From NCBI GenBank assembly GCA_027068975.1, contig JALXFN010000095.1:1-50466 (forward strand): a DNA stretch of 50,466 bases, written 5' to 3'. Position 1 is the stretch's first letter; each line of letters starts with the position of its first letter. Under the pieces are notes generated by a model. That model had not been told where the DNA came from. It saw only the letters and a list, made by a program, of their open reading frames with translations, and did not search any database. Source of the stretch: Campylobacteraceae bacterium. GTDB taxonomy: Bacteria; Campylobacterota; Campylobacteria; Campylobacterales; Sulfurovaceae. Of the stretch, positions 35,690 to 50,466 are shown piece by piece. Position numbers and translations under genes: made by a program.

Positions 35690-38011
35690 TCATAAATAAA
35701 CCCCACGCTCACAAAGTAAAGTATAGTCGCAAAAAGTACAGCGACTCACCTCTTCACAACGCTCTGCTACTACTTGATTCATTGATTTTAGCTCACTTAT
35801 GGTTTCATATAAAAGCTCTGTTTTGGCTTCTAGTTCGGTTATCTCTGTCATTTTTCCTGTAAATATCTCTACAAATGCTAAATTTAGTCCTTTGTATTTA
35901 TCTTTCAAGAGTTCAGAGTAGATACTCATCTGAAAATCAGTTAATTTCTCTAAGTTCTTAGTTCGGTTTGCATCGCTTATGGAACCACTTTTATAGTCAA
36001 GAACATAGGTTCCAGCGACATCTTGGTCTATTCGGTCTACTACCCCTTTAAAGTTTACTCCTGCTATGCTACCCACTATCTGTTTTTCACGCTCAACCAC
36101 TCGCCACCCTGCTTTAAAATGGTAAATTTGTTGCTCTATAAATTTAGCCAATTTTGCTTTCCATAAGAGTTTTGAGTAGGCTACTTTAGGGCTATAGGTC
36201 TCCAATAGTTGGTCTAAAAGTCTGTCGATATTTGACTTCATCTCATCACTGTTTTCAAAAAAACGCTTCTCTCTAAAAAGATGCTCTAAAACCTTATGTA
36301 AAAAAGCCCCTTCGTTCAACTCATCCTCATCTTTTGCTTTGAGCTTTTGCTCATAGGTATAATAGTACTTTCTCCTACAAGTCAAAAAGGTTTTAAGCCG
36401 TGTCGCTGACCACGTGATGTCTGTAGCATCAAAGTTCTCTATAATAGGGTCAAGCTGTTCAACCACCATGGAAGGCTCATCATAAAGCAGTTCTAGTGAA
36501 GGATTCACATACTCACCCAAACCTAAGCCCAACTCATAAAGGTAGGTAGCAGGTGTTTTGTTATTGCTTCTACTGTAGATAATGGTTGCTGTTTGAGCTT
36601 GTTCTAGTATGCGTTTATAGAGCTGTTTTTGCAGTGCTTCACGGTCATTTTTAGTAGGTAACTTTGCAAACTTTCGTAATGATGAGTTTAAGAAGCTGTC
36701 TTTTGCAGGGATACTTGGAACAATCCCATCGTTAAAGTCCACTATTACCACCCCTTTAAACGAAACCCCTCTGGTCTCCAACGCTCCCATAACGGTTACT
36801 TTTCCTCCTCGAACATCATCAAGGCTCAGTTGACTTAAACGCTTGAGCCATAAAAAGAGCCATGACTTCACAGACATAAGCTCTTCTGAAAAGACCATCT
36901 TAAACTGCTGAAAAGCCTCCTCAACAACCTCTCTTTTTCTATCCAAATCAAAAGGCTTCATGGTTGCAAAAAAATCTTCCACACCAAGCTTTCTACCCAC
37001 ACTTATTTTATTTAAATCCTCTTCTGCTATGCCATATTTCTTAAGTAAAAACTGCGTTTCAGGTGAGAAACTTTGCCAGTGATGGTAGATGGCTTCCAAA
37101 CGTTTATAGGACTTGGTTTTACTATAGTCAAACCCCATAGCAAAGTTAAAGTTGTTGAGTTTATCATAGAGTCTTAATGTCTCTTTAAAGCTCTCATCAG
37201 GGAGTAGCACCACGATATCATCAGCTTCTATACCTGAATTTACCATTTTTTGAACAGCCTCTAAAAGTAATGGTATTTGAGTGAGTCGCTCTTCTACAGA
37301 AAAGACTTTAGCTCGGATGGTCTCTTGATTTTTTAGAGAGCTTAGCACAGTTTGGGTATGTAAATCAAAAGAGACAAAAGCATCCTCTTCTAACTCTACC
37401 CCCATCTCTAAAAATCGCTCTTGCATCTTTTTGTTAAACTTTGAAGTCTGCATATGAATCACAAAAGGTTTTGCTTTTGCTATCTTGCTTATCAGCTCCA
37501 ACTCAAAGTAACTCATGTACCCTTCTAAATAGAGTTCAAACCTATCATAACTCTCTACAAAACCTTGGTTTATACGGTAGTTTTCAGGGGTAAACACACG
37601 GTCAGTTAACCCTTTTGAGAGTAAAATATTTCTATAATTTTTTAACAACTCTTCAAGTATCTCAATATGCTCTGAAAACTCTACATATGCATCACCCTCA
37701 ACCAAAGCATCAAAACTTACCTTTTCATGAGAAAGCTCCTCAAAGAACTTAAATATGGCATCAGTTTTGGTAAAAAACCTTATTAATTCCCGATTAATTT
37801 TTAGACCATTAAAGGCATCAAAGTTACTTGCCTCTTGCAAAAAAAGTGCCCGTTGCAAAGGGTCAACCATGGCAAGTTCAGGGAGTAAAATAGCCCGACG
37901 TTCAAAGTCATCTATTCGCATTAGTGAAGGCAACAGAGCATCCTGCTCTTTTTGAGCAACTCTGGCATTTCGTATGGCACGAGAGGTAGGGTAAATGTGT
38001 AGTATTTTCAT
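35690..38011 (-). CDS. addB: AddB-like nuclease/helicase-fold subunit
   Basis: A 773-residue protein. It opens MKILHIYPTSRAIRNARVAQ and carries an inactive-looking helicase-like core (RGVSFKGVVIVDFNDGIVPS, VLLPDESFKETLRLYDKLN). The C-terminal PD-(D/E)XK nuclease contains GVVDRIDQDVAGTYVLDYKS. Four cysteines in FLTCRRKYYY and RCTFCDYTLLCERG form the iron-sulfur staple seen in AddB and Cas4-type nucleases. It should pair with AddA (30968-33733) in break resection. In Helicobacter the two genes are apart; here they are close and on the same strand but interrupted by the thioredoxin-fusion gene on the other strand. Confidence 0.88.
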   Translation of the reverse strand: MKILHIYPTSRAIRNARVAQKEQDALLPSLMRIDDFERRAILLPELAMVDPLQRALFLQEASNFDAFNGLKINRELIRFFTKTDAIFKFFEELSHEKVSFDALVEGDAYVEFSEHIEILEELLKNYRNILLSKGLTDRVFTPENYRINQGFVESYDRFELYLEGYMSYFELELISKIAKAKPFVIHMQTSKFNKKMQERFLEMGVELEEDAFVSFDLHTQTVLSSLKNQETIRAKVFSVEERLTQIPLLLEAVQKMVNSGIEADDIVVLLPDESFKETLRLYDKLNNFNFAMGFDYSKTKSYKRLEAIYHHWQSFSPETQFLLKKYGIAEEDLNKISVGRKLGVEDFFATMKPFDLDRKREVVEEAFQQFKMVFSEELMSVKSWLFLWLKRLSQLSLDDVRGGKVTVMGALETRGVSFKGVVIVDFNDGIVPSIPAKDSFLNSSLRKFAKLPTKNDREALQKQLYKRILEQAQTATIIYSRSNNKTPATYLYELGLGLGEYVNPSLELLYDEPSMVVEQLDPIIENFDATDITWSATRLKTFLTCRRKYYYTYEQKLKAKDEDELNEGAFLHKVLEHLFREKRFFENSDEMKSNIDRLLDQLLETYSPKVAYSKLLWKAKLAKFIEQQIYHFKAGWRVVEREKQIVGSIAGVNFKGVVDRIDQDVAGTYVLDYKSGSISDANRTKNLEKLTDFQMSIYSELLKDKYKGLNLAFVEIFTGKMTEITELEAKTELLYETISELKSMNQVVAERCEEVSRCTFCDYTLLCERGVYL

Positions 38012-38073
38012 AAAAAGATTATAGCAGATTTTTATTCACAATTTTTTGCTATTATAAATAAAAAGGTTTCTCC

Positions 38074-39969
38074 ATGTTGTACTTCCTAGATAATCTTTCC
38101 GTAAATTTTCTAAATACGCTAAAACGCTTCCCCATGGTTAGTCTCTCAGCCTACCTTATGACACTTATTTTACTTATCTTCTCCATTACGGGTCATGGAC
38201 TTATGGAGAAGTATCCAAACTATGATTTGGCTAACAAAATAGCATTTTTAATGACCCTTGCTATGCCTCTCTTTTTTGTTTTAAAACTCTCTTCTAAAAA
38301 ACAGTTTATGACACTTATAGGTATGGCTCTTCTAGTTGGCTACTATTTTCTTTTTATTCCTGATAATTTAGAAAATGCAAACTCTGCATTTTTCCAAAGA
38401 CACTTTTTATGGATAGTAGCATTAATGATATTTTCCATAGTAGCACCTTTTCTTTTTCGTCCAACAAACAATGAAGATTTTTGGGAGTGGACACAGCAGA
38501 TTGTTTTTGCACTTTTAGCAACATTACTCTTCTCGATTGTACTGTTTTTAGGGTTAGAAGGAGCAAGATATGCACTAGAAAAACTTTTTAATATTACTGC
38601 TTTACCTCGCTTTAAACATCGAGTAGAAGAGATATTTATGCTTACAATATTTGGGCTTTTTTCTATCAACTACTTTTTATCACAAGTTCCAAAAAATCCT
38701 CTACTTATAACTTCCAGACCCTATAGTAAAATAGAAAATATCTTTACTAAATACATCTTAACTCCTTTGGTTATCATCTATTTTCTTATTCTTTTTGCTT
38801 ATACCTTTAAAATTATATACCTTAACCAATTCCCAACAGGGGTTCTTGCTTGGCTTGTACTCATTTTTTCAGGGCTTGGCATAGTAACATTTCTTTTTTG
38901 GACACCTTTATGGGGTGAAAAAATCAAAAAATACAAAAAACTAATTTGGATAGCCATACTTCTACAAACCTTTGTTCTAGCCATAAGTATCTATATGCGT
39001 ATAGAGCAGTATGGCTTAACAGAAAACCGTTACTTCATAGCCTTGGCAGGAGTTTGGTTATTTGTAACCTCACTCTACTTTATCGTTTTAAAAAATGCCT
39101 CTTATAAATGGATATTTATTACCATTCCTCTGCTGATAGTAGTTTCCCTATCTGGTCCCTTTTCTGCTAGAGAGCTTTCAAAAGCGAGTCAAGTAGAGAA
39201 ATTACAAACACTTTTAGGTACTTCAATGCCCCTATCAGAAGAGTCAAACAGCACAGTAAAGTACCAAATATCAAGTAAAATAGAGTATCTGTTTAGAAAA
39301 CATGGCATCGACTCTCTTATGCCAGTGATACCTGAGATAGTGGCTAACTATAAACCAAAAAATAATAAACAAAATGATTGTGAAGCAATATCTTATGATG
39401 GTTCATTCCCTTATTATGCTACAAAAAAATTGGGCTTTAACTTCATAGACAAGTGGCAATGGGAACAAAACTTAAGATATGAAGCGAAAAATATACCTAT
39501 CTATATTCATTCCATTTATCCCAATAATACGACTACCTTGAACATAAAAGGCTATGATTGGCTACAATCTTTCTCTTTTTATAATCCAGCAGAAGAAGTA
39601 AACATAAGAGGACCACTCTACTGCCCTCCAATGGCTGAAGAGATACCTGATGACTTCAACAACACTACGCCATTTACACTCAAAACAGATAACGATTATA
39701 TCCATATTGAAAAAGAGAAAAAGAGCATAGCTAAGATAAAAATAGATACATTCATAAGCACCGTTAAAGAGAAATGGGAGGAGCAATATAAAAACAATGA
39801 CAAAACGCTTACTCCTTTTCAAGAAGCTGGATTGAAACCAAAAGATTTAACGCTTGAATATGAAGATTCAGAGATAAAAGTAAAGTTCTTTTTTCAGTCG
39901 CTTGAATTTTCACAAAAAAAGCATAAACTGATACAGTATAATGGAAGAGTGCTTATTCATGAAAAATAG
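38074..39969 (+). CDS. DUF4153 polytopic membrane protein
   Basis: A 631-residue protein whose first 370 residues contain about ten hydrophobic segments (SLSAYLMTLILLIFSITGHG, GMALLVGYYFLFIP, WIVALMIFSIVAPFLF and others). The block FFQRHFLWIVALM..WEWTQQIVFALLATLLFSI matches the DUF4153 family as I know it. The last 260 residues are hydrophilic and likely periplasmic, with YDGSFPYYATKKLGFNF. It diverges from addB across only 62 bases, with AAAAGG before the ATG. The function of the family is not known. Confidence 0.82.
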   Translation: MLYFLDNLSVNFLNTLKRFPMVSLSAYLMTLILLIFSITGHGLMEKYPNYDLANKIAFLMTLAMPLFFVLKLSSKKQFMTLIGMALLVGYYFLFIPDNLENANSAFFQRHFLWIVALMIFSIVAPFLFRPTNNEDFWEWTQQIVFALLATLLFSIVLFLGLEGARYALEKLFNITALPRFKHRVEEIFMLTIFGLFSINYFLSQVPKNPLLITSRPYSKIENIFTKYILTPLVIIYFLILFAYTFKIIYLNQFPTGVLAWLVLIFSGLGIVTFLFWTPLWGEKIKKYKKLIWIAILLQTFVLAISIYMRIEQYGLTENRYFIALAGVWLFVTSLYFIVLKNASYKWIFITIPLLIVVSLSGPFSARELSKASQVEKLQTLLGTSMPLSEESNSTVKYQISSKIEYLFRKHGIDSLMPVIPEIVANYKPKNNKQNDCEAISYDGSFPYYATKKLGFNFIDKWQWEQNLRYEAKNIPIYIHSIYPNNTTTLNIKGYDWLQSFSFYNPAEEVNIRGPLYCPPMAEEIPDDFNNTTPFTLKTDNDYIHIEKEKKSIAKIKIDTFISTVKEKWEEQYKNNDKTLTPFQEAGLKPKDLTLEYEDSEIKVKFFFQSLEFSQKKHKLIQYNGRVLIHEK

Positions 39970-40023
39970 TTGATATATATTAGTTTTTATGTTATACTTT
40001 TTTAATCTTGGAGGGTTATAGCT

Positions 40024-40962
40024 ATGAACATAGTATTATTAGACAGTAAGACACTTGGTAGTGATTTAGATTTAACTCCATTACAAGAGCTTGGTGAACT
40101 AACCACGTTCTCAACAACTGCATCTTCCCAAACAAAAAAACGCATAGAAGATGCTACGATAGTAATAACCAATAAAGTGGTGATTACTAAAGAGCTTATG
40201 CAAAATTCCTCTAAGCTAAAACTCATCTGCATCGCTGCTACAGGTATGAATAATGTTGACTTAGGTGCTGCAGAAGAGTTAGGAATCATGGTTAAAAATG
40301 TATCTGGCTACTCTACAAATTCTGTTGTTCAACACACTTTTGCTTTGGCTCTTTCTCTCATGCAAAGAGTCTCTTACTATAATCAGAGTGTACAAAGTGG
40401 GATATGGAGTGATTCTGACCTCTTCACCGATGTCTCTAACCCTTTTTGTGAAATAGCTGGTAAAAAATGGGGAATCATAGGTCTAGGAACCATAGGTAAA
40501 GAAGTTGCAAGGGTTGCCGAAGCATTTGGAGCCAATATTGAGTACTTCTCTACTTCTGGAGAAAATAAGATTAACGACTATCATCACTCTGAGATTGATG
40601 AACTCTTAAGTATCTGTGATATTGTCTCTATTCATTGTCCTCTAAACAATACTACTCAAAACCTTATAGATGCATCAAGACTTAAACTCCTAAAAGATAA
40701 AGCCATACTACTTAACCTTGCTCGTGGTGCTATTGTTAACGAAGAGGACTTAGCAGAAGAGTTAAATAGACGAGAAATTTATGTAGGACTAGATGTTCTA
40801 GCTAAAGAGCCTATAGAGAAAGATAACCCTCTTTTACATGTTAAAGATAAAAATAGACTCATTATAACGCCACATATTGCTTGGTCAAGTATAGAGGCAC
40901 GAAAAAAGCTTTTAGAAGGAATTGTTGAGAATATTGAGACCTTTATAAAGCAAAAAACCTAG
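40024..40962 (+). CDS. D-2-hydroxyacid dehydrogenase (NAD-dependent)
   Basis: A 312-residue enzyme with the D-isomer-specific dehydrogenase layout. The Rossmann motif is GIIGLGTIGKEVARVAEAFG near residue 152. The catalytic arginine is in LNLARGAIVNEEDL, the glutamate in GLDVLAKEPIEKDNPL and the histidine in ITPHIAWSS. These enzymes reduce 2-keto acids such as hydroxypyruvate, glyoxylate or pyruvate; sequence alone does not choose between them, although the KNVSGYSTNSVVQHTFAL segment is like glycerate/hydroxypyruvate reductases. GGAGGG lies eight bases before the ATG. It follows the DUF4153 gene by 54 bases and may share its transcript. Confidence 0.93.
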   Translation: MNIVLLDSKTLGSDLDLTPLQELGELTTFSTTASSQTKKRIEDATIVITNKVVITKELMQNSSKLKLICIAATGMNNVDLGAAEELGIMVKNVSGYSTNSVVQHTFALALSLMQRVSYYNQSVQSGIWSDSDLFTDVSNPFCEIAGKKWGIIGLGTIGKEVARVAEAFGANIEYFSTSGENKINDYHHSEIDELLSICDIVSIHCPLNNTTQNLIDASRLKLLKDKAILLNLARGAIVNEEDLAEELNRREIYVGLDVLAKEPIEKDNPLLHVKDKNRLIITPHIAWSSIEARKKLLEGIVENIETFIKQKT

Positions 40963-41438
40963 TTTTTAGAGCTATTTGTATAATAATTAATAAAATTAAA
41001 TACTCTATATTTAAATCATAATAATTATTAATATTAAGGAATTATAAATATTTGAATATTAAATAAATATTAATTTATTTTTATAGTTTAATAGTTAAAA
41101 TATTTTTTATGTGTTATAATTTTCTTAGCAGGATATATTTATAACGTAGACCTCCTCCTTCCTTTAATAAATTTTAATATTTATATTCTGCAGAGGTGTT
41201 TTAAGCTATTATAATTAAATATTTTTTTCTCTGTCTCGTCAACAGAACCAAAGCTTAAACATCTCAACCCTTCTTAAATAAAACTCTGTCCTAGTTGATA
41301 AAAAAGCAAAATTCCACTTTATATCATATATTTCTTAATATTTTTTTTAATTATATTTTTTTATATATTGATAGAAATACACGTTAAAAACACTTTAATA
41401 TTTTATAATACAAAAAATAAAAAATAAAAGGATTACAA
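40963..41438. other. AT-rich gap without a gene
   Basis: 476 bases, mostly A/T. It holds a TATAAT-type box near 41115 (TGTTATAATTTT) and, at 41253-41268, a 16-base motif GCTTAAACATCTCAAC that recurs at 45309. No open frame with protein-like content is seen. Confidence 0.5.
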
Positions 41439-42287
41439 ATGATAAATAAACGTTTGGTCGTTATTACCCCTGTTTATAAAAAAGAGTTATCTGAAAATGA
41501 ATATTTATCTATAAAATCTTCTCTTCAAAATTTAAAAAATTATGATAAGGTTATTATTGCACCTGAAAAATTTTTAAAAGATCAAGAATTTATTGATATC
41601 TGGAATGAGTATGGCTATAGAGTAGTTTTTTTTAAAGACAAATACTTTATTAATACTGACAGCTATAATAGATTAATGTTAAATAAAATATTTTATAAAA
41701 AATTTACTGATTATGAATATATGTTAATTGTACAGTTAGATGTTTTGATTTTTTCTAACTCTCTAGATTATTGGATGAATAAAGATCTTGACTATGTTGG
41801 AGCACCTTGGGTTAACAATGACCTTCATGGTATGCGATTTCATTTTTCAGGTAATGGAGGATTATCTTTACGTAAAATAAAAACATTCCTTTCGGTATTA
41901 GAGTCTACTCAACTTTCAAAAAAACAAGATTATTATGGAGTATTACCAATATCAGGAAATCTTAAAACTATTTTACTTTTATCAGTACTATTTAAATTGA
42001 ATTTTAAATATAATGCAAATATTTTTAAATATTTTTATAAAAAACAAGAAGATTATTTTTGGGCATTATATGCACACTTTTTCGTTAAAGAGTTTAAAGT
42101 AGCAAGTATAGAAGACTCGCTTTCTTTTGCCTTTGAACGTTACCCTGAATACTGTTTTGAACAAAATAATAAGTCTATACCATTTGGAGTACATGCATGG
42201 GAAAAATACAATCCTGACTTTTGGAAAAAACATAAAGCAAATATATTCAATAATAAAGAGAATTTTTATTCTAAGATGTGTTCGTGA
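41439..42287 (+). CDS. DUF5672-type glycosyltransferase
   Basis: A 282-residue protein that opens VVITPVYKKELSENEYLSIK. It contains YMLIVQLDVLIFSNSLDYWM, followed by LDYVGAPWVNNDL and SGNGGLSLRKIKTFLSVL, the pattern of DUF5672, a GT-A-like family found in surface polysaccharide loci. LDVLIF takes the place of the metal-binding DxD strand. No membrane segment is seen. The coding sequence is more AT-rich than its neighbours and no other sugar genes lie near it, which suggests transfer. AAAGGATTACAA is the ribosome-binding site. Confidence 0.82.
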   Translation: MINKRLVVITPVYKKELSENEYLSIKSSLQNLKNYDKVIIAPEKFLKDQEFIDIWNEYGYRVVFFKDKYFINTDSYNRLMLNKIFYKKFTDYEYMLIVQLDVLIFSNSLDYWMNKDLDYVGAPWVNNDLHGMRFHFSGNGGLSLRKIKTFLSVLESTQLSKKQDYYGVLPISGNLKTILLLSVLFKLNFKYNANIFKYFYKKQEDYFWALYAHFFVKEFKVASIEDSLSFAFERYPEYCFEQNNKSIPFGVHAWEKYNPDFWKKHKANIFNNKENFYSKMCS

Positions 42288-42521
42288 ACTACCTCTAGGT
42301 GGTCCCCGACCCGAATTTAAATCCAAAGTGCAATTTCTAAATTTGAGATTACTTACGATTACGTTCACCTGCCTCCTAGACTGCTAGACTGTAGACCCAT
42401 AGCCATGGAGAGACCCAAATTTAAATTTGAGTGTTTCTTATCGCAACATTAAATATATAATATTTTGCTATAATTGTCTTTAACTATTTTAACTTCAAGT
42501 AGTTTACAAAAAGGATTTTAA
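42288..42521. other. Odd intergenic segment with short repeats
   Basis: 234 bases after the glycosyltransferase gene. Its first part is unusually GC-rich for this region (GGTGGTCCCCGACCCG). GACCCGAATTTAAATC and GACCCAAATTTAAATT form a near-repeat about 110 bases apart. It may be a relic of an inserted element. It also contains the upstream region of the Crp/Fnr gene. Confidence 0.4.
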
Positions 42522-43199
42522 ATGAAAAATATAGTAGACCTCCCCTTACCTTTTGAAAATCTAGAACCTTCCTTACAAAATAGAATAAATACTCAAGCAC
42601 AAATCGTTACATTAAACAGAGGTGATGATGTCTACTTCGCAGATAAATTAAAAGATTATGTCTATGTTGTAAAAAAAGGAAAGATAAAAAGTTACCAACT
42701 CAATATTGAGAATGGAAAAGAGCAAACACTCTATATATACAGCAACAATCATATCTTTGATACAGTTATCATTTTAGATGGAGAAGATCATGATGTATGT
42801 TATGAGGTGCTAGAAGAGAGTACTCTTGTTATGTACCCTATTGAGTTTATACGTAATTTACTTTATCATTCTCCTGAATTTAGTCGAAAGTTTTATCTAT
42901 ATATGGCACAACAAATGCGTTATATAGAAGAGATGCTGACTGATGTCTCTCTCTACCCTACTGCTGAAAGAGTTATAAAACTTATTCTACAAGACTTTAA
43001 GCCCAGTAATATATTTCGTTTCAATATTCTTGAAGGACTGTCCCATACGGAAACTGCAAATCTTATAGGTACAGTAAGGAATGTATTGGAAAGACATCTA
43101 AAAAATTTAAAAAATGAAAATATGATTGATATAGTCAATAGAAAGATTCAAGTTTTAGATGCAGAAAAACTTCTTAAAAAAGTTAATCTTTTAGCATAA
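42522..43199 (+). CDS. Crp/Fnr-family transcription regulator
   Basis: A 225-residue protein. Residues about 15-125 form a cyclic-nucleotide-binding-like beta-roll (VTLNRGDDVYFADKLKDYVY, VVKKGKIKSYQLNIENGKEQ). A long dimer helix follows at about 125-150, then a Crp-type helix-turn-helix near 175-205 (LEGLSHTETANLIGTVRNVL, with ERHLKNLKNENMI). No N-terminal cysteine cluster is present, so it is not an oxygen-sensing Fe-S Fnr. The ligand could be small or absent, as in NssR-like proteins. It directly precedes yfdX, hist-fold and hdeD-type genes on the same strand and may control them. Confidence 0.9.
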   Translation: MKNIVDLPLPFENLEPSLQNRINTQAQIVTLNRGDDVYFADKLKDYVYVVKKGKIKSYQLNIENGKEQTLYIYSNNHIFDTVIILDGEDHDVCYEVLEESTLVMYPIEFIRNLLYHSPEFSRKFYLYMAQQMRYIEEMLTDVSLYPTAERVIKLILQDFKPSNIFRFNILEGLSHTETANLIGTVRNVLERHLKNLKNENMIDIVNRKIQVLDAEKLLKKVNLLA

Positions 43200-43238
43200 T
43201 TGTTACTCAGGTAGCAAAACTATCTTGCTCCGTCACGA

Positions 43239-43244
43239 TATAAT
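43239..43244 (+). promoter_or_regulatory. -10 box of the YfdX-histone-HdeD cluster
   Basis: TATAAT (in CGATATAATTC) lies 55 bases before the yfdX ATG. Just upstream is an imperfect inverted repeat AGCAA-N7-TTGCT (43213-43229), placed over the -35 region where a Crp/Fnr-type protein could act, and downstream is TTTAG-N9-CTAAA (43254-43272). Confidence 0.55.
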
Positions 43245-43299
43245 TCTTTCACATTTAGTCATATAGGCTAAATAAATTTTATTCACAAGGACTAAAAAA

Positions 43300-44184
43300 A
43301 TGAAAAAATTATTTCTCTCGTCATTAGCTGCATCTCTGTTGGTTACAGCTTCTATTGCAAAAGAAGCAACACCACAGAATACAGCAGTTAAGCAAGTGAA
43401 CAATGCAGCGATTAGTAAAGCAAGAAAAAATGCTATGGAAAATCAAGTTAAAGTTATACAAGAGGCTGTAGACTCACTAAAATATGCACATAATGCACTA
43501 AATGAACTCTATAAAGGTAACCAAGAAAAAGCCTCTAAATCTCTTGAAAAAGCTTTAGGAAAACTAGAAGTTACATTAGCCTCAAAAAATGTACCTAAAC
43601 TTTTACCTGTTGATAGTCATATTGCTGTAAATGAACTTATTACAAGTAGTAATGCGATTAAAGAAGCAGTGAAACATGCTAAAGACCTTTTAGATGATGA
43701 TAAACTACAAGCAGCAAAAGCCATACTTGAACCACTAAAAAGTGAAATTGATATTACAGTTGTAAGTCTTCCATTAGCAACATATCCTAATGCACTTAAA
43801 GAGACAGCAAAGCTAATACATGACAATAAAATAGATGAGGCAAAGGTTGTTCTTGATTTAGCACTCAATACTTTAGTGGTAACAGAAAAAATTATTCCTA
43901 TTCCACTAGTAGAAGCAACAGAACTTATTGCTGCAGCAGCTGAAGTTGCAGAAAAAGACCCCAAAACGGCAAAACTCTATCTTGATGCTGCACAAGAAGC
44001 ATTGAAAATATCTAAACAACTTGGATATGTAAGTACAAGTGATATTACATACAAAGCTTTAGATGATGCAATTTCATCATTGAAGTTAGATGCAACTTCT
44101 GCAGAGGTTAAAGGGTTCTTTACTAATTTAGAAAATAAATTAAAAGACTTTACATCAAAAGTATTTTCACCAAAAGATAAATAA
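43300..44184 (+). CDS. YfdX-family periplasmic stress protein
   Basis: A 294-residue protein with a signal peptide (MKKLFLSSLAASLLVTASIA). A helical body follows with KVIQEAVDSLKYAHNALNEL, KASKSLEKALGKLEVTLAS and AAAEVAEKDPKTAKLYLDAA, the pattern of the YfdX family. In enterobacteria YfdX is a periplasmic protein under the EvgA acid and drug resistance regulon, and has been linked to chaperone-like activity. AAGGAC is the ribosome-binding site. It is transcribed with the next two genes, with gaps of 60 and 12 bases. Confidence 0.85.
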   Translation: MKKLFLSSLAASLLVTASIAKEATPQNTAVKQVNNAAISKARKNAMENQVKVIQEAVDSLKYAHNALNELYKGNQEKASKSLEKALGKLEVTLASKNVPKLLPVDSHIAVNELITSSNAIKEAVKHAKDLLDDDKLQAAKAILEPLKSEIDITVVSLPLATYPNALKETAKLIHDNKIDEAKVVLDLALNTLVVTEKIIPIPLVEATELIAAAAEVAEKDPKTAKLYLDAAQEALKISKQLGYVSTSDITYKALDDAISSLKLDATSAEVKGFFTNLENKLKDFTSKVFSPKDK

Positions 44185-44190
44185 TGATTG

Positions 44191-44213
44191 TTTAGTAGCA
44201 AAATGCTACTAAA
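44191..44213. repeat. Perfect palindrome between yfdX and the histone-fold gene
   Basis: TTTAGTAGCA, loop AAA, TGCTACTAAA: 10-base arms, 32 bases before the next ATG. The left arm shares GTAGCAAAA with the element at 43212-43220 upstream of yfdX. It may be an mRNA processing or attenuation hairpin, or a regulator site; no T run follows. Confidence 0.7.
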
Positions 44214-44244
44214 GATATTGAAAAATAGAATAAAAAGGGAAAAA

Positions 44245-44694
44245 ATGGCAGTAGTAGGATTTACAAAATTGGAGGCACTGTTTAGAAAAGCAGCTTCAAT
44301 AGACATAAAAAAAGGTCATGCAAAACATATTACAGATATTGTAGAAGCTAAGTTAGTTGATTTACTCATAGCAGCTGAACGAAATGCAAATCTAAATGGA
44401 AGAGATGTTATTTGGGCATCTGATTTACCCATTACAAAAGGGCTTCAAGAGACAATCATTAGTTTAAGAAAATTAGAAGAGGAGATAGCAGTAGAGACAA
44501 TTTTAGAGTTTTTAACCACTGTTCCACCATTGAAATATGGCTTATCAGAAGATACAGAGGCTCAACTACCAGAAATTACTGGTGCACTTCTTATTACTAT
44601 GGCAAAAATTATGAAAGAAGTAGATGGTAATGACAGAGCTTTAGACCATGAAACCATTGCTAAAACGAAAAGAATTATGGATTTAACACTTTAA
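44245..44694 (+). CDS. DUF1931 histone-fold protein
   Basis: A 149-residue protein starting at the ATG at 44245, which has AAGGGA upstream; the earlier ATG at 44188 lies before the intergenic palindrome and is rejected. The sequence MAVVGFTKLEALFRKAASID, then RNANLNGRDVIWASDLPITK, matches the DUF1931 family, which includes the Aquifex protein whose structure shows two histone folds in one chain. Two helix-strand-helix units can be seen: residues about 5-65 and 80-145, the second with LLITMAKIMKEVDGNDRALD. DNA binding is possible but not shown. It lies between YfdX and HdeD genes. Confidence 0.85.
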   Translation: MAVVGFTKLEALFRKAASIDIKKGHAKHITDIVEAKLVDLLIAAERNANLNGRDVIWASDLPITKGLQETIISLRKLEEEIAVETILEFLTTVPPLKYGLSEDTEAQLPEITGALLITMAKIMKEVDGNDRALDHETIAKTKRIMDLTL

Positions 44695-44706
44695 AAGGAG
44701 TCCACT

Positions 44707-45267
44707 ATGGTACGTTACAGTCTATTGACAAACAATAAAGATTTATTAGAGAAATTTAGTAAATATTCTAAAATATATGGAGTAATATTTCTGCTAATTG
44801 GTTTAGCAGGGATTGTTTTCCCTTATATTATGTCTTTGACAACAGCCGTTATCTATGCATGGTTTTTACTCTTTAGTGCATTTATGATAGGTTTTCATAC
44901 ATGGCAGACCAATAAAAAAGATTGGCTAGGGTGGCTGAAAACTGTTATTTTTCTTATGGTAAGTATTTTAATGATTATTAATCCTGTTACTGCTGTTGCC
45001 ACACTTGGTATTTTATTTGCCATATACTTTTTTATGGATGCTTTTAGTTCAAGTGCATTGGCATTTGAACTAAAACCAGCAAAAATGTGGTGGGTATCAT
45101 TGCTCAATGGGTTACTCTCATTGATTATTGGTATCTACTTTATTATTGGTTGGCCCATAAGCTCTATGTTTTTAGTAGGTTTTCTAGTAGGAATCAGTCT
45201 TTTCTTTGATGGAATTGCACTGTTAACTTTAGGAAGTGCTGCAAAAACATTGGAAAAAGAAGTATAA
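44707..45267 (+). CDS. HdeD-family membrane protein (DUF308)
   Basis: A 186-residue protein with six membrane segments, among them YGVIFLLIGLAGIVFPYIMS, WLKTVIFLMVSILMIINPV and GLLSLIIGIYFIIGWPISSM. The internal repeat of paired segments and the GI(V/Y)..P motifs match HdeD, a DUF308 inner-membrane protein linked to acid resistance in E. coli. AAAGGAGTCC lies five bases before the ATG. It follows the histone-fold gene by 12 bases and ends the cluster, with a hairpin after it. Confidence 0.88.
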   Translation: MVRYSLLTNNKDLLEKFSKYSKIYGVIFLLIGLAGIVFPYIMSLTTAVIYAWFLLFSAFMIGFHTWQTNKKDWLGWLKTVIFLMVSILMIINPVTAVATLGILFAIYFFMDAFSSSALAFELKPAKMWWVSLLNGLLSLIIGIYFIIGWPISSMFLVGFLVGISLFFDGIALLTLGSAAKTLEKEV

Positions 45268-45270
45268 TAA

Positions 45271-45304
45271 TTTTAAGGGACTTATATTTATTAGCCCCTT
45301 AAAA
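45271..45304 (+). terminator. Hairpin after the HdeD gene
   Basis: TTTTAAGGG and CCCTTAAAA are perfect 9-base arms with a 16-base loop, starting four bases after the stop. The T run is weak (CTTTGCTT), so confidence is limited. Confidence 0.5.
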
Positions 45305-45403
45305 CTTTGCTTAAACATCTCAACTTCTAAATTAACCCAATCAAAAAAACTATACTAAAGCTTACATAAGGTATTTTTTCTAAAAAGACTTCATGGAGCA
45401 ATA

Positions 45404-47014
45404 ATGTTAGACATTCTCATAATCGGTTCAGGTGGGGCAGGACTTTCTGCTGCACTCTCAGCTAAACAACAAGGCTCAACTGTTTTGGTAGTAGGAAAAA
45501 GCTATCCAACAGCTTCACAAACCTCTATGGCTCAGGGGGGGATGAATGCTGCTTTAGGAAACGTCACCCCTGACTCTATTCAAGCTCATATTAATGATAC
45601 CATTAAGTCTGCTCATGGGCTTTGCAATGAAGAGATGGTTAAGCAGATGTGTGAAGATGCACCTTTTAGCATAGAGTGGTTAGAAAAGCTAGGTGTTCCC
45701 TTTGATAGAACTTCAGAGTCTAAAGTAGCCCAACGACAACTAGGTGGTGCTTCAAGTAAACGAGCTTGTTACGCCCAAGACTACACAGGTCTTAAAATTT
45801 TACATACCCTCTACGATAACTGCCTCAAAGAGAATATTGAGATGCTAGAGGAGCATCTACTTCTTAACCTCATCGTTGAAGAAAAAGTTGTTTTAGGAGC
45901 AACTTTTTTAGACATTGTCACAGGTGAAGTCAAAGAGATAAAAGCCAACGCAACCATTATCGCCACAGGTGGATATGGAGCTTTATATAAAAACTTTACC
46001 ACCAACTCAGAAGGTGCTACTGGTGATGGTATAGCAGCCGTTCTTCGTGCTGGTGGAACCATTAGTAATATGGAGTTTGTACAGTTTCACCCCACAGCAC
46101 TGAAAAGCTCTTCTACACTTATTAGTGAGAGTGCTAGAGGAGAAGGTGGATACCTTGTCAACACCAAAGGTGAACGTTTTATAGATGAACTGCTCCCACG
46201 TGATGTGGTGGCTCGTGCTATATTTGAGCAGATAAACAGTGGTGAAGAGGTATTTTTAGACATTCGACACTTAGGAGAAGAGAAGCTCCTACACCTTATG
46301 CCTCAAGAGGTTCACCTATGTAGACTACACGAAGGTGTAGACCCTATTACCGAACTTATTCCCATTAAACCTGTAGCCCACTACACCATGGGAGGAATAG
46401 ATGTTAATGAAAACTTAGAAGTGACAGGATTAAAAAACTGTTACGCCGTGGGTGAGTGTAGCAATGCTAAAATACACGGAGCTAACAGATTAGGAGGAAA
46501 CTCCCTCTTAGAGATTATAAGCCTCGGAAGATTGGCAGGAAATAATGCCGTAGGGTGTGATTGCCATCACACCGAAATAGAAAATACCCAACTACAACAA
46601 GACCAAGAGTACATAGATGGTCTATTTGAAGAGTACCCATACGAAAAAAACTTTTATGACATTCAAAACCAACTAGGAGTTGACTTTTACACTAAAGCAG
46701 GAATAGTCCGAGACAATACCCAACTCAACAACTTTTTAAATGAACTCAGAGTCATAAAAGCCGACCTTGAGGACATGGGTATAGGAGACAAAAATAGAGA
46801 AAACAACACAAACTTAGTGGACTTTCTAGAGTTTCAAAATCTCTTAGAAGTGGGAGAAGTTCTACTCGATGCTGCCCTTGTTCGAGACGAAAGCCGTGGA
46901 GCCCACTACAAAACAGCTTTTCCAAAAGAAGAGGATAAATTTTTCAAAGCCGATGCTCTCTACTGGATAGAAGAGAATGTATTACAAAACAGATTGGTAA
47001 AGGTGGTAAACTAA
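45404..47014 (+). CDS. Flavoprotein subunit, fumarate reductase/succinate dehydrogenase family
   Basis: A 536-residue FAD enzyme. The FAD-binding motif is ILIIGSGGAGLSAALSAKQQ at the start. Active-site regions are QFHPTALKSS, SESARGEGGYLVN, ELLPRDVVARAIF (catalytic arginine) and YAVGECSNAKIHGANRLGGN, with PVAHYTMGGIDVNENLEVTG. The segment TASQTSMAQGG has Gln where most fumarate reductases have the histidine that binds FAD covalently, so FAD is probably not covalently bound. No Tat signal is present, unlike the periplasmic MfrA of related bacteria, so it should act in the cytoplasm. L-aspartate oxidase (NadB) is similar in length and motif, but the next gene, one base on, is an SdhB-like subunit, which favours a reductase or dehydrogenase complex. 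There is no membrane subunit beside it. Confidence 0.83.
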   Translation: MLDILIIGSGGAGLSAALSAKQQGSTVLVVGKSYPTASQTSMAQGGMNAALGNVTPDSIQAHINDTIKSAHGLCNEEMVKQMCEDAPFSIEWLEKLGVPFDRTSESKVAQRQLGGASSKRACYAQDYTGLKILHTLYDNCLKENIEMLEEHLLLNLIVEEKVVLGATFLDIVTGEVKEIKANATIIATGGYGALYKNFTTNSEGATGDGIAAVLRAGGTISNMEFVQFHPTALKSSSTLISESARGEGGYLVNTKGERFIDELLPRDVVARAIFEQINSGEEVFLDIRHLGEEKLLHLMPQEVHLCRLHEGVDPITELIPIKPVAHYTMGGIDVNENLEVTGLKNCYAVGECSNAKIHGANRLGGNSLLEIISLGRLAGNNAVGCDCHHTEIENTQLQQDQEYIDGLFEEYPYEKNFYDIQNQLGVDFYTKAGIVRDNTQLNNFLNELRVIKADLEDMGIGDKNRENNTNLVDFLEFQNLLEVGEVLLDAALVRDESRGAHYKTAFPKEEDKFFKADALYWIEENVLQNRLVKVVN

Positions 47015-47015
47015 C

Positions 47016-47702
47016 ATGCAAATACAAATAAAAAGAAGCAATGAGTTAATAAGTTATGAAATTCCTTTTGAAAGCTCCACCCTACTCAAAGCACTCTACC
47101 ACATTAAAAATAGTGAAGACAACAGCCTTACCTTTAGCTCCAGTTGTCGTTCAGGGGTTTGTGGGACATGTGCTGTTAGAGTCAATGGAAAAGAGGTTTT
47201 AGCCTGTTCTTATAGCATTCAAGAGGGTGACTTAGTAGAACCCCTAGCCTACCATGAAGTCCAACGTGACCTAAAAGTAAACAAACAAAAGGTAAGAGAG
47301 ACACTAAGAACGGCTACGGCATGGCTACAAACTCCACAAGAAGCTCTCATAAATGAACAGCAGGTTCAACTTACAGCCAAACAGACCGACTGTATCTTAT
47401 GTGATTCATGTTACTCCTCTTGCCCTGTACTTGAAGTTAACCCTAACTTTATAGGACCTTTTGCCTTAACAAGAGCCTACCGTTACACAGCCGACCCAAG
47501 AGAAGGAAATATTCAAGCCATTGTAGATAATATCCAAAGTAACGGCATCTGGGACTGTACCCTCTGTGGAAACTGTACCGAAGCCTGTCCACAAGGCATA
47601 GACCCTAAAATGGACATTACCATGCTACGTGGAACAGCCAGTCAATTTGGCTACACCGACCCCAACTTTCAAGCTATGGATTTTGGGTTTGGTGGATTTT
47701 AG
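47016..47702 (+). CDS. Iron-sulfur subunit, SdhB/FrdB family, type E-like
   Basis: A 228-residue protein with an N-terminal plant-type [2Fe-2S] domain (CRSGVCGTCAVRVNG, then C in VLACSYS) and a C-terminal two-cluster domain. The first cluster is CILCDSCYSSCP. The second is CTLCGNCTEACP: it has a fourth cysteine where FrdB and SdhB usually have a non-cysteine residue, so a [4Fe-4S] in place of the normal [3Fe-4S] is expected, as reported for type E succinate:quinone oxidoreductases. It should pass electrons between the flavoprotein (one base upstream) and an unknown partner. The next gene is on the other strand. Confidence 0.88.
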   Translation: MQIQIKRSNELISYEIPFESSTLLKALYHIKNSEDNSLTFSSSCRSGVCGTCAVRVNGKEVLACSYSIQEGDLVEPLAYHEVQRDLKVNKQKVRETLRTATAWLQTPQEALINEQQVQLTAKQTDCILCDSCYSSCPVLEVNPNFIGPFALTRAYRYTADPREGNIQAIVDNIQSNGIWDCTLCGNCTEACPQGIDPKMDITMLRGTASQFGYTDPNFQAMDFGFGGF

Positions 47703-47719
47703 ATGATGAGTTAGGAGCA

Positions 47720-49939
47720 TTATTTTCTATAGGTTCCTGCTCGTCTATTGGTACATCCAAAAAGAACCAATGACTCATAAGCATCTACGGTTGCAGATGA
47801 TTTTCCCAGAGGGCTGTTATCGAATTTTTTACACCCCTCAAGATGGCTAAATACTTTATATGTAGAAGATGGATTAATAAGAACAACAGGAAGCGTACTA
47901 TCTTTGATAATTAGAGAATGTACATCGTATCCATCTTCTTTCCATTGAGAAAAGCTAACATTTGGTTTTAAACCATATCCATCTCTAATTTTAACATTGG
48001 TTCCCTTGTCTACTCGAATAGTATTTGAATCAGAACGTGTTAAGTATTTTTGTCCTTTATCATGAATCGTTTTATAGGTAAGCTTTTCTTTAGATAAAAT
48101 ATTATTATTTTCGATGTATACATTTTTTCTATCTCCTTCTCCCCTTATATCTCCCAAATAAATACTTGTATCATAAGGTAAAATCAAAGTATTCTCTTTT
48201 GCATTTATATCAAATCCACGGTTTATATAGAGACTTTTTGTCGCAGATATTACGGTATTGTTATACACATCTACATGAGAGGAGTCATTGTCTAAATAGA
48301 TACCCTCACCTAAAGCAAAACTTGTATCAACATCATTTGTAGCAGCATAGGAACCAGTACAGTTTTCTATAATATTATTTCTGATAATATCTCTTTCTAC
48401 TGCTCTTTTAGAATTTTCTATATTATGCATTTTATTCACGTATGCATAGATACATCCCCCATCATTTAATGCCAACAGTGCATTAGAAATATAATTGTTT
48501 TCTACAATCCTATCCCCATTAGATAACCATCTAAACCATGAGTTGGACAAAGAGATTCCATTGTAACCAACCCTATCAACTCTATTATTAAATACCTTCG
48601 CACCTGAACTATTCATTACAAAAATACCCGTTAACATATGTGCATCACCAAATGATAAAACATCATCATCAAGGGTAGAGGCTCCTATATCATGAATATA
48701 ATTACTATCAATAATTGCATTATCTGCAAATACTTTTATCCCTCCTGTTCTTGCATGATGGACACTATTTCCTCTAACAACAGTATCAGCAGGAAGACGC
48801 TCATATCTTTTATAAAAATCTCGCAAAGCAATACCCCAACCACTTACATAGGAGATAGTATTGTTTTTTACAATTAACGTATCCTCTTTACTTTTTCGTG
48901 TATCATTTTTTTTATCAATACCATTACCCCTAATTTTAGTAATTTTTAATCCACTAATTGTTACTTTTTTAGCTCCAGCATCAAGATATATACCATGCTC
49001 ACGACAGGCTACCGTTACATTTTTAGGTTCTGTACTAGACTTCAGATAAATTCTATTTTTATGCCAAGCCCACTCATCATCTGTATCTATTGCACCTAGT
49101 ACTTGTGTAAAAAAGACTTTAAATTGTGGGGTAATATTTTTACCATCAGATATAGCTTTCGATTCAAGATTAAGATAACCACCTTCGTAGCTTTTTACAC
49201 GCCTAGAAGCCAATCTCCATTGACTCATTCGTACATGAGCTATAGAGTCTATTATATCAGCATTTGTCATATTGAAATTCTCTAAAGAAAATTTAGATTT
49301 TGAGGGTGAATCTTTAACCGTAAGATATCCACTATTTGGATATCGTGAAGCACTTTTTTCCTCTCCATTTATAAACAGAGCTTGTACTCCACTCATCTTT
49401 ATAGATGGTTGCTCTTTTTCTTCTTTTTTACCATTTTTCTCTACCATAACCATTCTATCATGTACGTCTAACTCATCTATATTCATACATGGAGAGGGAG
49501 CATAATAGAGCCTTTTACTCTCATCATATTTCCAACCCACTACAGATTTTTCTCCTGTAAGCAGTACATTTTTTGCTCCATTGGCTGCTTTAATGGTAAT
49601 ATTCTTATTTAATTTTACACCAGCTTTATATGTACCATCTTCCATAAGTAAAGTTGCTCCAGATGTAGCAGCATCTACAGCTTCTTGTAGTTCTCTATAC
49701 TTTTTATTTGAGCCTTCTATATAAACTAATCCTTTCGTCTTATCATTATTTTTTGCTACTGCTACAACGGAGGAGATTGAGACTTCGTCTACTTTACTCT
49801 CTTCTATGCTCTCATCTTTATCTATATAAACTTTAGGTGCTGTATCTGCATTTAAAGAGTTAAACATAAAAAACATACCTCCTATACTAAGTAAAACAAT
49901 CGTAGTAAAGCCTATATCTTTAATTTTTTCTTTTTTCAT
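47720..49939 (-). CDS. Secreted parallel beta-helix protein
   Basis: A 739-residue protein with an N-terminal hydrophobic signal or anchor (DIGFTTIVLLSIGGMFFMF). A right-handed beta-helix follows, shown by repeated short strands and asparagine ladders such as NATRGNSIHH-like turns: VVRGNSVHHARTGGIKVFAD, AIIDSNYIHDIGASTLD, GAKVFNNRVDRVGYNGISLS and HVDVYNNTVISATKSLYINR. The first part (YRELQEAVDAATSGATLLME, then DGTYKAGVKLNKNITIKAAN) is the typical start of NosD/pectate-lyase-like helices. No catalytic set is identified. A polysaccharide-binding or -cleaving role is possible. The gene converges on the Fe-S subunit. Confidence 0.82.
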   Translation of the reverse strand: MKKEKIKDIGFTTIVLLSIGGMFFMFNSLNADTAPKVYIDKDESIEESKVDEVSISSVVAVAKNNDKTKGLVYIEGSNKKYRELQEAVDAATSGATLLMEDGTYKAGVKLNKNITIKAANGAKNVLLTGEKSVVGWKYDESKRLYYAPSPCMNIDELDVHDRMVMVEKNGKKEEKEQPSIKMSGVQALFINGEEKSASRYPNSGYLTVKDSPSKSKFSLENFNMTNADIIDSIAHVRMSQWRLASRRVKSYEGGYLNLESKAISDGKNITPQFKVFFTQVLGAIDTDDEWAWHKNRIYLKSSTEPKNVTVACREHGIYLDAGAKKVTISGLKITKIRGNGIDKKNDTRKSKEDTLIVKNNTISYVSGWGIALRDFYKRYERLPADTVVRGNSVHHARTGGIKVFADNAIIDSNYIHDIGASTLDDDVLSFGDAHMLTGIFVMNSSGAKVFNNRVDRVGYNGISLSNSWFRWLSNGDRIVENNYISNALLALNDGGCIYAYVNKMHNIENSKRAVERDIIRNNIIENCTGSYAATNDVDTSFALGEGIYLDNDSSHVDVYNNTVISATKSLYINRGFDINAKENTLILPYDTSIYLGDIRGEGDRKNVYIENNNILSKEKLTYKTIHDKGQKYLTRSDSNTIRVDKGTNVKIRDGYGLKPNVSFSQWKEDGYDVHSLIIKDSTLPVVLINPSSTYKVFSHLEGCKKFDNSPLGKSSATVDAYESLVLFGCTNRRAGTYRK

Positions 49940-50068
49940 TTATCAAACCTTTTTAGAAAAACCATGATTTTGGTTTTCAAGATTTTATTATAGCAGTAGA
50001 AATTCAAATATCTATGGATAGTAATTGATTTTATGAAATTTTAAATGATTGATTTTTTGGGAGTAGAC

Positions 50069-50095
50069 CTCTTCTTTAAATTTTTTAAAGAAGAG
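50069..50095. terminator. Long perfect hairpin after the 78-residue gene
   Basis: CTCTTCTTTAAA, loop TTT, TTTAAAGAAGAG: a perfect 12-bp stem, 29 bases beyond the stop of the gene to its right. No strong T run follows on the reverse strand, so it may protect the RNA end or act as a weak terminator. Confidence 0.6.
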
Positions 50096-50123
50096 ATTAG
50101 TAAGATATAATTTTCAACTATTT

Positions 50124-50360
50124 CTAAAGAGATTCAGCCAATTCATCTTTAAGAAAAAAAGTACCTAAGAGTGAAGTGAGTACAAACATGTACACTATAC
50201 TTTCATTACCAAACGAGACTTCAACTTCCTCTTTTTCTATAAGACTTTGAGCTTTTACGACTTCTCCACTATTTGCTTGTATACTATCTTCAACCATAGA
50301 ACCATTCGCAAAAAGAAATGTATGAAAAACAAAAAGAAAACCTAATATTTTTAATAACAT
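50124..50360 (-). CDS. Small exported membrane protein
   Basis: A 78-residue protein with a signal-like N-terminus (MLLKILGFLFVFHTFLFANG), an acidic middle (SLIEKEEVEVSFGNE) and a second hydrophobic segment (SIVYMFVLTSLLGTFFLKDE). AAAGGA lies six bases before the ATG. It is upstream of the beta-helix gene on the same strand, separated by 184 bases and a hairpin. I do not recognise a family. Confidence 0.7.
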   Translation of the reverse strand: MLLKILGFLFVFHTFLFANGSMVEDSIQANSGEVVKAQSLIEKEEVEVSFGNESIVYMFVLTSLLGTFFLKDELAESL

Positions 50361-50466
50361 TTTCTATTCCTTTATTTTTTTTTAATAAATATATTATATT
50401 AAATATAAAATATTTATTTTATTAAAAAGGTTTAATAATCGTAAAAAAACTTACTTTGTGCTAAAA

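Follow-up and report, generated by a model that had tools for sequence, protein, structure and literature searches.

A DUF1931 double-histone-fold gene in a predicted Crp/Fnr-controlled proteostasis and envelope-stress unit of Campylobacterota

What is a protein with a histone fold doing in a gene cluster with envelope-stress proteins? The question is raised by a 50,466-nucleotide contig of a Campylobacteraceae bacterium, analysed here as a whole and called the window, in which an earlier note had described four genes in a row on one strand (a Crp/Fnr regulator, YfdX, a DUF1931 protein and HdeD) and had suggested that they form one stress unit linking acid or envelope stress to chromosome packaging. 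Pfam searches confirmed all four genes at their positions and in the families originally called (Table 1). The 149-residue DUF1931 protein matched PF09123 with 166.5 bits against a gathering cut-off of 21.8, over profile positions 1-138 of 138; it contains no hydrophobic segment, its closest relative is a Sulfurovum protein with 93% identity, and in the DUF1931 tree the Campylobacterota sequences make up one side of a branch, in keeping with a host from the Sulfurovaceae. The HdeD-like protein missed the NCBIfam equivalog cut-off (56.1 vs 189 bits) and met that of the broader DUF308 family. The N terminus of YfdX resembles a signal peptide, as judged by eye rather than by a predictor, and a sequence search of this protein against solved structures gave no match. 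An Rfam search of positions 38000-50466 found no family. In the window, the cluster lies next to frdA/frdB-like genes.

Table 1. Positions and supporting evidence of the cluster genes and promoter elements in the window
Feature	Position	Strand	Evidence
Crp/Fnr-family regulator, 225 aa	42522..43199	+	Pfam PF00027 (cNMP_binding) and PF13545 (HTH_Crp_2); orthologue alignment
Predicted operator GTTACTCAGGTAGC	43202..43215	+	Phylogenetic footprint, genome searches, upstream-region statistics; relatives carry the palindrome TGCWACTNARGTWGCA
Predicted -10 element TATAAT	43239..43244	+	23 nt past the operator, which is centred at about -42.5
YfdX-family protein, 294 aa	43300..44184	+	Pfam PF10938, 1.1e-33, 116.8 bits vs cut-off 26.6
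DUF1931 double-histone-fold protein, 149 aa	44245..44694	+	Pfam PF09123, 5.1e-49; relatives 1wwi and 1r4v; AlphaFold2 model
HdeD-like (DUF308) integral membrane protein, 186 aa	44707..45267	+	Pfam PF03729; five hydrophobic segments

The gaps between the genes, in the order crp, yfdX, DUF1931 and hdeD, are 100, 60 and 12 nt. The first of these contains a palindrome that is conserved in relatives, where its 16-bp form is TGCWACTNARGTWGCA with half-sites TGCAA-N6-TTGCA, and that is followed 22-23 nt on by a TANAAT -10 element. Because the 100-nt gap holds this conserved operator and -10 element, the regulator probably lies outside the transcription unit, which would consist of yfdX-DUF1931-hdeD; the regulator gene, immediately upstream of it, would be transcribed separately. 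The idea of a single stress unit is supported, in the sense of a co-regulated set of all four genes that is conserved in relatives. Of the refuting conditions set in the note (no conserved neighbourhood, separate transcripts, no histone-like helices), none was borne out, except that the regulator gene probably has a transcript of its own. A sigma-70 consensus scan gave 19 sites against 15.7 expected.

A conserved neighbourhood was sought in Campylobacterota and was found, in the same or a permuted order. DUF1931 occurs in 26 and YfdX in 46 of 397 Campylobacterota genomes, and YfdX is present in 26/26 DUF1931 genomes compared with 46/397 overall (p=1e-28, with species that are not independent). 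Among the loci retrieved, Nitratiruptor-type genomes again show crp-yfdX-DUF1931-hdeD, with frdA/frdB-like genes upstream of crp; other Sulfurovaceae have yfdX-DUF1931-hdeD, Sulfurospirillum-type genomes have (crp)-yfdX-hdeD-DUF1931-prx, and DUF505 and peroxiredoxin genes often lie 3' of hdeD. YfdX or HdeD is encoded within 6 kb of DUF1931 at 16/25 Campylobacterota loci and in 0/20 control windows (p=3e-6). The order has changed and the membership has been kept, which argues for selection on co-expression, and we conclude from these neighbourhoods that the cluster is not a chance arrangement. The DUF1931 genes of Nautiliaceae lie beside acpP-fabF-accA or other genes, and no operator was found there with up to 2 mismatches.

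We used the operator to ask which other genes carry the same signal. The search pattern, GYWACTNARGTWGC-N20-25-TANAAT with the reversed pattern as control, was derived from the regions that separate crp from the gene after it, and dnaK genes were not used in building it. A first search with the operator and -10 pattern returned 18 matches in 16 genomes, and none for the control; across the 397 Campylobacterota genomes, operator plus TANAAT occurred at 50 sites in 35 genomes, with 2 matches for the control. The gene directly downstream of these 50 sites was dnaK in 16 cases, yfdX in 14, hsp20 in 5, peroxiredoxin in 2, rhodanese-like in 2 and HdeD in 1; 6 sites preceded other genes, 2 preceded none and 2 lay inside an ORF. 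The spacer between operator and -10 element was 22 nt at 37/50 sites and 23 nt at 9/50, which puts the operator centre at -41.5 or -42.5. By this predicted geometry, the operator would be centred at about -41.5, where class II activators of the Crp/Fnr family bind. The genome that contains the window has a second operator with a -10 promoter, before an hsp20 gene on another contig; among the 28 near-site loci of this genome that were checked for a -10 element, no other clearly combined the correct spacing with a gene downstream.

An operator lay within 300 nt upstream of 34/59 YfdX genes, 8/17 DUF1931 genes and 2/2 HdeD genes that were the first gene, 8/27 peroxiredoxin genes and 6/23 DUF505 genes; the count was 0/50 each for intra-operon DUF1931 and intra-operon HdeD, 0/29 for crp and 2/801 for other genes, and the reversed control gave 0 in all gene classes. 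Allowing up to 2 mismatches added further cases with DUF1931 first. The operator precedes whichever gene opens the unit, DUF1931 itself included. In several yfdX-DUF1931-hdeD operons of Sulfurovaceae (L060, L062, L064, L113, L114, L116 and L117), no recognisable operator was found.

An orthologue of the regulator (E <=1e-44, 35-51% identity) was found in 12/13 operator-bearing genomes tested, and two genomes that have no operator had either no orthologue or a remote one only. The regulator combines a cNMP-binding domain with a Crp helix-turn-helix, and its recognition helix, GTVRNVLERH, resembles those of the aligned orthologues (GTVR[HNQK]V..RH). In the CRP-DNA code, R180 reads a G and E181 reads a G:C pair of the half-site. 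Relative to E. coli CRP, the orthologues keep R180 and R185 and mostly replace E181 by H or N. The half-site TGCAA appears to keep the G read by R180 and to lose the G:C pair read by E181, matching the changes in the helix. A different regulator, such as a heat-shock repressor, might instead bind the palindrome, with the neighbouring crp a bystander, as the operator-bearing genome in which the regulator search had no match (G219) and the position of the dnaK-linked sites, between grpE and dnaK within hrcA-grpE-dnaK operons, would suggest. We think this distinctly improbable, since the -41.5 position and the strict spacing fit class II activation by a Crp/Fnr protein, the register of the half-sites agrees with the recognition-helix changes, and crp adjoins operator-led yfdX, DUF1931 or hsp20 genes.

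The cAMP-binding Arg-Ser/Thr signature is the mark of CRP proper; by inspection, it is absent from the orthologue alignment, and the regulator scored 21.6 bits against an NCBIfam CRP cut-off of 266. Redox signals are often sensed by Crp/Fnr proteins, and it is conceivable, if somewhat doubtful, that the unit answers a change of redox state or electron acceptor, with a regulator that senses respiration or oxidants and with chaperones, peroxiredoxin and DUF1931 as an arm against oxidative damage. The frdA/frdB-like genes beside the cluster, the operator before peroxiredoxin genes and the thioredoxin or peroxiredoxin genes beside DUF1931 in other phyla would all suit such a role; however, the aligned orthologues have no FNR-type N-terminal cysteine cluster, and most operator sites are followed by dnaK, yfdX or hsp20. 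This alternative differs from the proteostasis explanation, which we prefer, mainly in the inducing signal.

We turned to the DUF1931 protein itself, for which chromosome packaging or gene control had been suggested. The AlphaFold2 model of the 149-residue protein (pLDDT 87.6) superimposed on Thermus TTHA1479 (1wwi) with a Z score of 25.2 and an rmsd of 1.0, on Aquifex Aq_328 (1r4v) with a Z score of 16.8, and on single-chain H2A-H2B and the M. kandleri histone with Z scores of ~12. On this model, the protein is a true double histone fold in one chain, which bears out the fold that had been predicted from the letters, and it shares family and fold with Aq_328 and TTHA1479 over its full length. 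Like canonical and alpha3 histones of bacteria or archaea (HMfB, HBb), DUF1931 retains the histone fold, the structural L2 arginine and the following aspartate (the D60 position); unlike them, it has two folds per chain, is acidic and has lost the RKT motif of L2 by which archaeal histones contact DNA; this motif reads R-[DE]-[VILF] in the DUF1931 sequences compared, 1wwi and 1r4v among them. Rather than being basic, the window protein has a pI of 5.26 and a net charge of -5, and 11/11 homologues checked are acidic (pI 4.8-5.7). Surveys recognise two main families of bacterial histones, of which DUF1931 is one (PMC12701072), report that its members lack DNA-binding residues (PMC11390915, PMC12701072) and assign it no settled function (PMC11390915, PMC12701072, PMC13088155).

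These features bear on whether DUF1931 is a stress-induced chromatin protein, one that, by binding DNA in a non-canonical way, would shield the nucleoid or silence it during envelope or heat stress. The complete double histone fold and the retained L2 arginine and aspartate are what such a protein would be expected to have, and histone-fold proteins are reported to be highly expressed in several bacteria, Thermus included (PMC10627809). The acidity of every homologue checked, the altered RKT motif, the missing DNA-binding residues of the surveys and neighbours that are chaperone and redox genes nevertheless make this role unlikely, and the proposal of chromosome packaging is not upheld. DUF1931 probably helps cells to withstand protein damage rather than to package DNA, because its operon carries the DNA signal found in relatives before major chaperone genes.

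The names YfdX and HdeD, taken from E. coli, had also suggested acid stress as the theme. The chromosomal HdeD improves growth of E. coli at low pH (PMC8290217), and a Klebsiella study gives YfdX a part in acid survival (PMC6394985). In the tLST, however, YfdX1, YfdX2 and HdeD make up an envelope module on which resistance to heat and chlorine depends (PMC8290217, PMC8407380), and the available data on tLST-encoded HdeD give no evidence of better growth or survival at low pH (PMC8290217). The operator of the window cluster is common to dnaK, hsp20, peroxiredoxin and DUF505 genes, so an acid-resistance operon is very improbable and acid stress does not hold as the theme. The window cluster likewise pairs YfdX and HdeD as an envelope module, and the wider tLST set (hsp20, a ClpB-type disaggregase, thioredoxin, KefB-like and PsiE; tLST layout in PMC8290217) surrounds DUF1931 in Thermus, as do chaperones, YfdX and HdeD on a Trichormus plasmid. 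It differs in that the one tLST plasmid examined has no DUF1931, in that the window cluster adds a Crp/Fnr-type regulator with its own predicted operator, and in that the linked dna-hsp20-clpG/K core of a mobile island was not found among the genes identified near the window cluster, nor was any sign of mobility. The window cluster resembles a section of a tLST in how it works, without being a tLST itself. In plasmid searches, YfdX had many matches in Enterobacteriaceae and DUF1931 had none there, and the window HdeD found no relative; separately, a protein named HdeD is present on the Trichormus plasmid.

We looked beyond Campylobacterota for the company that DUF1931 keeps, in a genome scan that covered the best 80 loci, Aquificota (Aq_328) not among them. 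A core chaperone or Trx/TrxR/Prx gene lay within 6 kb of DUF1931 at 23/30 non-Campylobacterota loci compared with 1/20 controls (p=3e-7), where the stress families were picked after the neighbours had been viewed and related genomes are not independent. Frequent neighbours were hsp20, clpB, dnaK, groEL, thioredoxin or kef genes. DUF1931 is present in 37/111 Deinococcota genomes, typically in a block hsp20-DUF1931-PsiE-(TrkA_C)-Kef that has thioredoxin upstream in many Thermus. Other arrangements were ClpB-DUF1931 in Ardenticatena, DUF1931-hsp20 in Kribbella and DUF1931-thioredoxin in Rhodopila; in plasmids of Rhodococcus and Nocardia, DUF1931 comes after dnaK-grpE-dnaJ-cbpM-clpB, mostly together with trxA and thioredoxin reductase. 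A conjugative plasmid of Trichormus from a thermal spring carries DUF1931, groESL, hsp20, trx, dnaK, two YfdX genes, DnaJ, CbpM, clpB and HdeD within ~18 kb. Some alphaproteobacterial and Bacteroidota DUF1931 loci had no stress neighbour. A link to YfdX was not retained to explain the loci of other phyla, since only 3/18 such genomes have YfdX.

Taking together the families, neighbourhood, operator, promoter geometry, target genes and cross-phylum chaperone linkage computed here, we consider it likely that yfdX-DUF1931-hdeD is a proteostasis and envelope-stress unit driven by a Crp/Fnr-type class II activator, in which DUF1931 acts through protein contacts. The regulator encoded from 42522 would bind the palindrome at 43202-43215 beside RNA polymerase, at the -35 position, and would switch on the three genes from the -10 element at 43239. 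Through the same arrangement of operator and promoter, it would also control hsp20 in its own genome; in relatives, the arrangement would bring in dnaK, hsp20, peroxiredoxin and DUF505 genes. YfdX in the periplasm and HdeD in the inner membrane would guard envelope proteins in the manner of their tLST counterparts. DUF1931 would be the cytosolic member, acidic, with the histone-pair fold kept and the DNA-contact motif lost, and would most likely work by protein contacts alongside the chaperone and thioredoxin machinery. We infer that the inducing signal is protein damage, by heat or oxidation. The papers on Aq_328 and TTHA1479 assign them no function, whereas here its neighbourhood and a shared promoter signal connect the family with stress and chaperone genes; the linkage in several phyla and a signal common to dnaK and hsp20 give DUF1931 a concrete, testable role, and the tLST YfdX-HdeD module gains relatives in distant phyla.

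More broadly, we lean slightly towards the view that DUF1931 "histones" are widespread proteostasis factors, histone pairs that have become protein-binding components of the stress response, in at least 6 phyla and on plasmids, and that many Campylobacterota run a chaperone regulon (dnaK, hsp20 and yfdX-DUF1931-hdeD) by a Crp/Fnr-family activator that replaces or works alongside HrcA and HspR. For vent Campylobacterota, the operator predicts a chaperone regulon of Crp/Fnr type that is not known to have been described, and a search of the available literature for such a regulon in Campylobacterota found none. Chaperone genes of Helicobacter and Campylobacter are controlled by the repressors HspR and HrcA (PMC7464140, PMC6032397). 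The targets are again chaperone operons of the same phylum, but both of these proteins are repressors, whereas the operator position here points to a Crp/Fnr-type activator and, between grpE and dnaK, to an internal promoter. In a study of Nitratiruptor SB155-2 under Cd and Cu, YfdX, DUF1931 and HdeD are not named in a table of 27 shared up-genes, and dnaK and grpE are up (PMC10092412).

Homologues of the fumarate reductase/succinate dehydrogenase-like genes frdA and frdB, which adjoin the cluster in the window, lie immediately 5′ of crp, the Crp/Fnr-type regulator gene, in fetched loci from Nitratiruptor-type genomes, often overlapping it by 4 nt. This hints that the cluster may be tied to respiration. 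The non-coding stretch upstream of crp in the window holds a near-repeat, GACCC[GA]AATTTAAAT, at 42308 and 42412; a 27-nt probe taken from this stretch matched only this locus among the fetched loci.

Features beside the cluster and at related loci
Feature	Location	Remark
frdA + frdB	45404-47702	adjoin cluster
Non-coding stretch	42285-42430	upstream of crp; holds near-repeat
Second YfdX gene	G000:C74:47578-48471	window's genome, locus L083
DUF505 (PF04458)	L058:5344-7200	
DUF505 (PF04458)	L060:4765-6714	

Neither HdeD nor DUF1931 was found near the second YfdX gene. At Nautiliaceae DUF1931 loci (L072, L139 and others), the gene is often preceded by an acpP-fabF-accA-outer-membrane-like block, and the operator, the cluster's conserved palindrome, was not found.

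Behind operator-led promoters in two genomes (L305, L313) is a gene for a 138-aa rhodanese-like protein, starting 27-29 nt past the -10 element. Operator-led genes of unassigned type at loci L319, L331, L345 and L349 (229, 308, 127 and 104 aa, respectively) are possible new regulon members. hdeD is often followed by DUF505, and the same operator lies 5′ of DUF505 in 6 of 23 cases.
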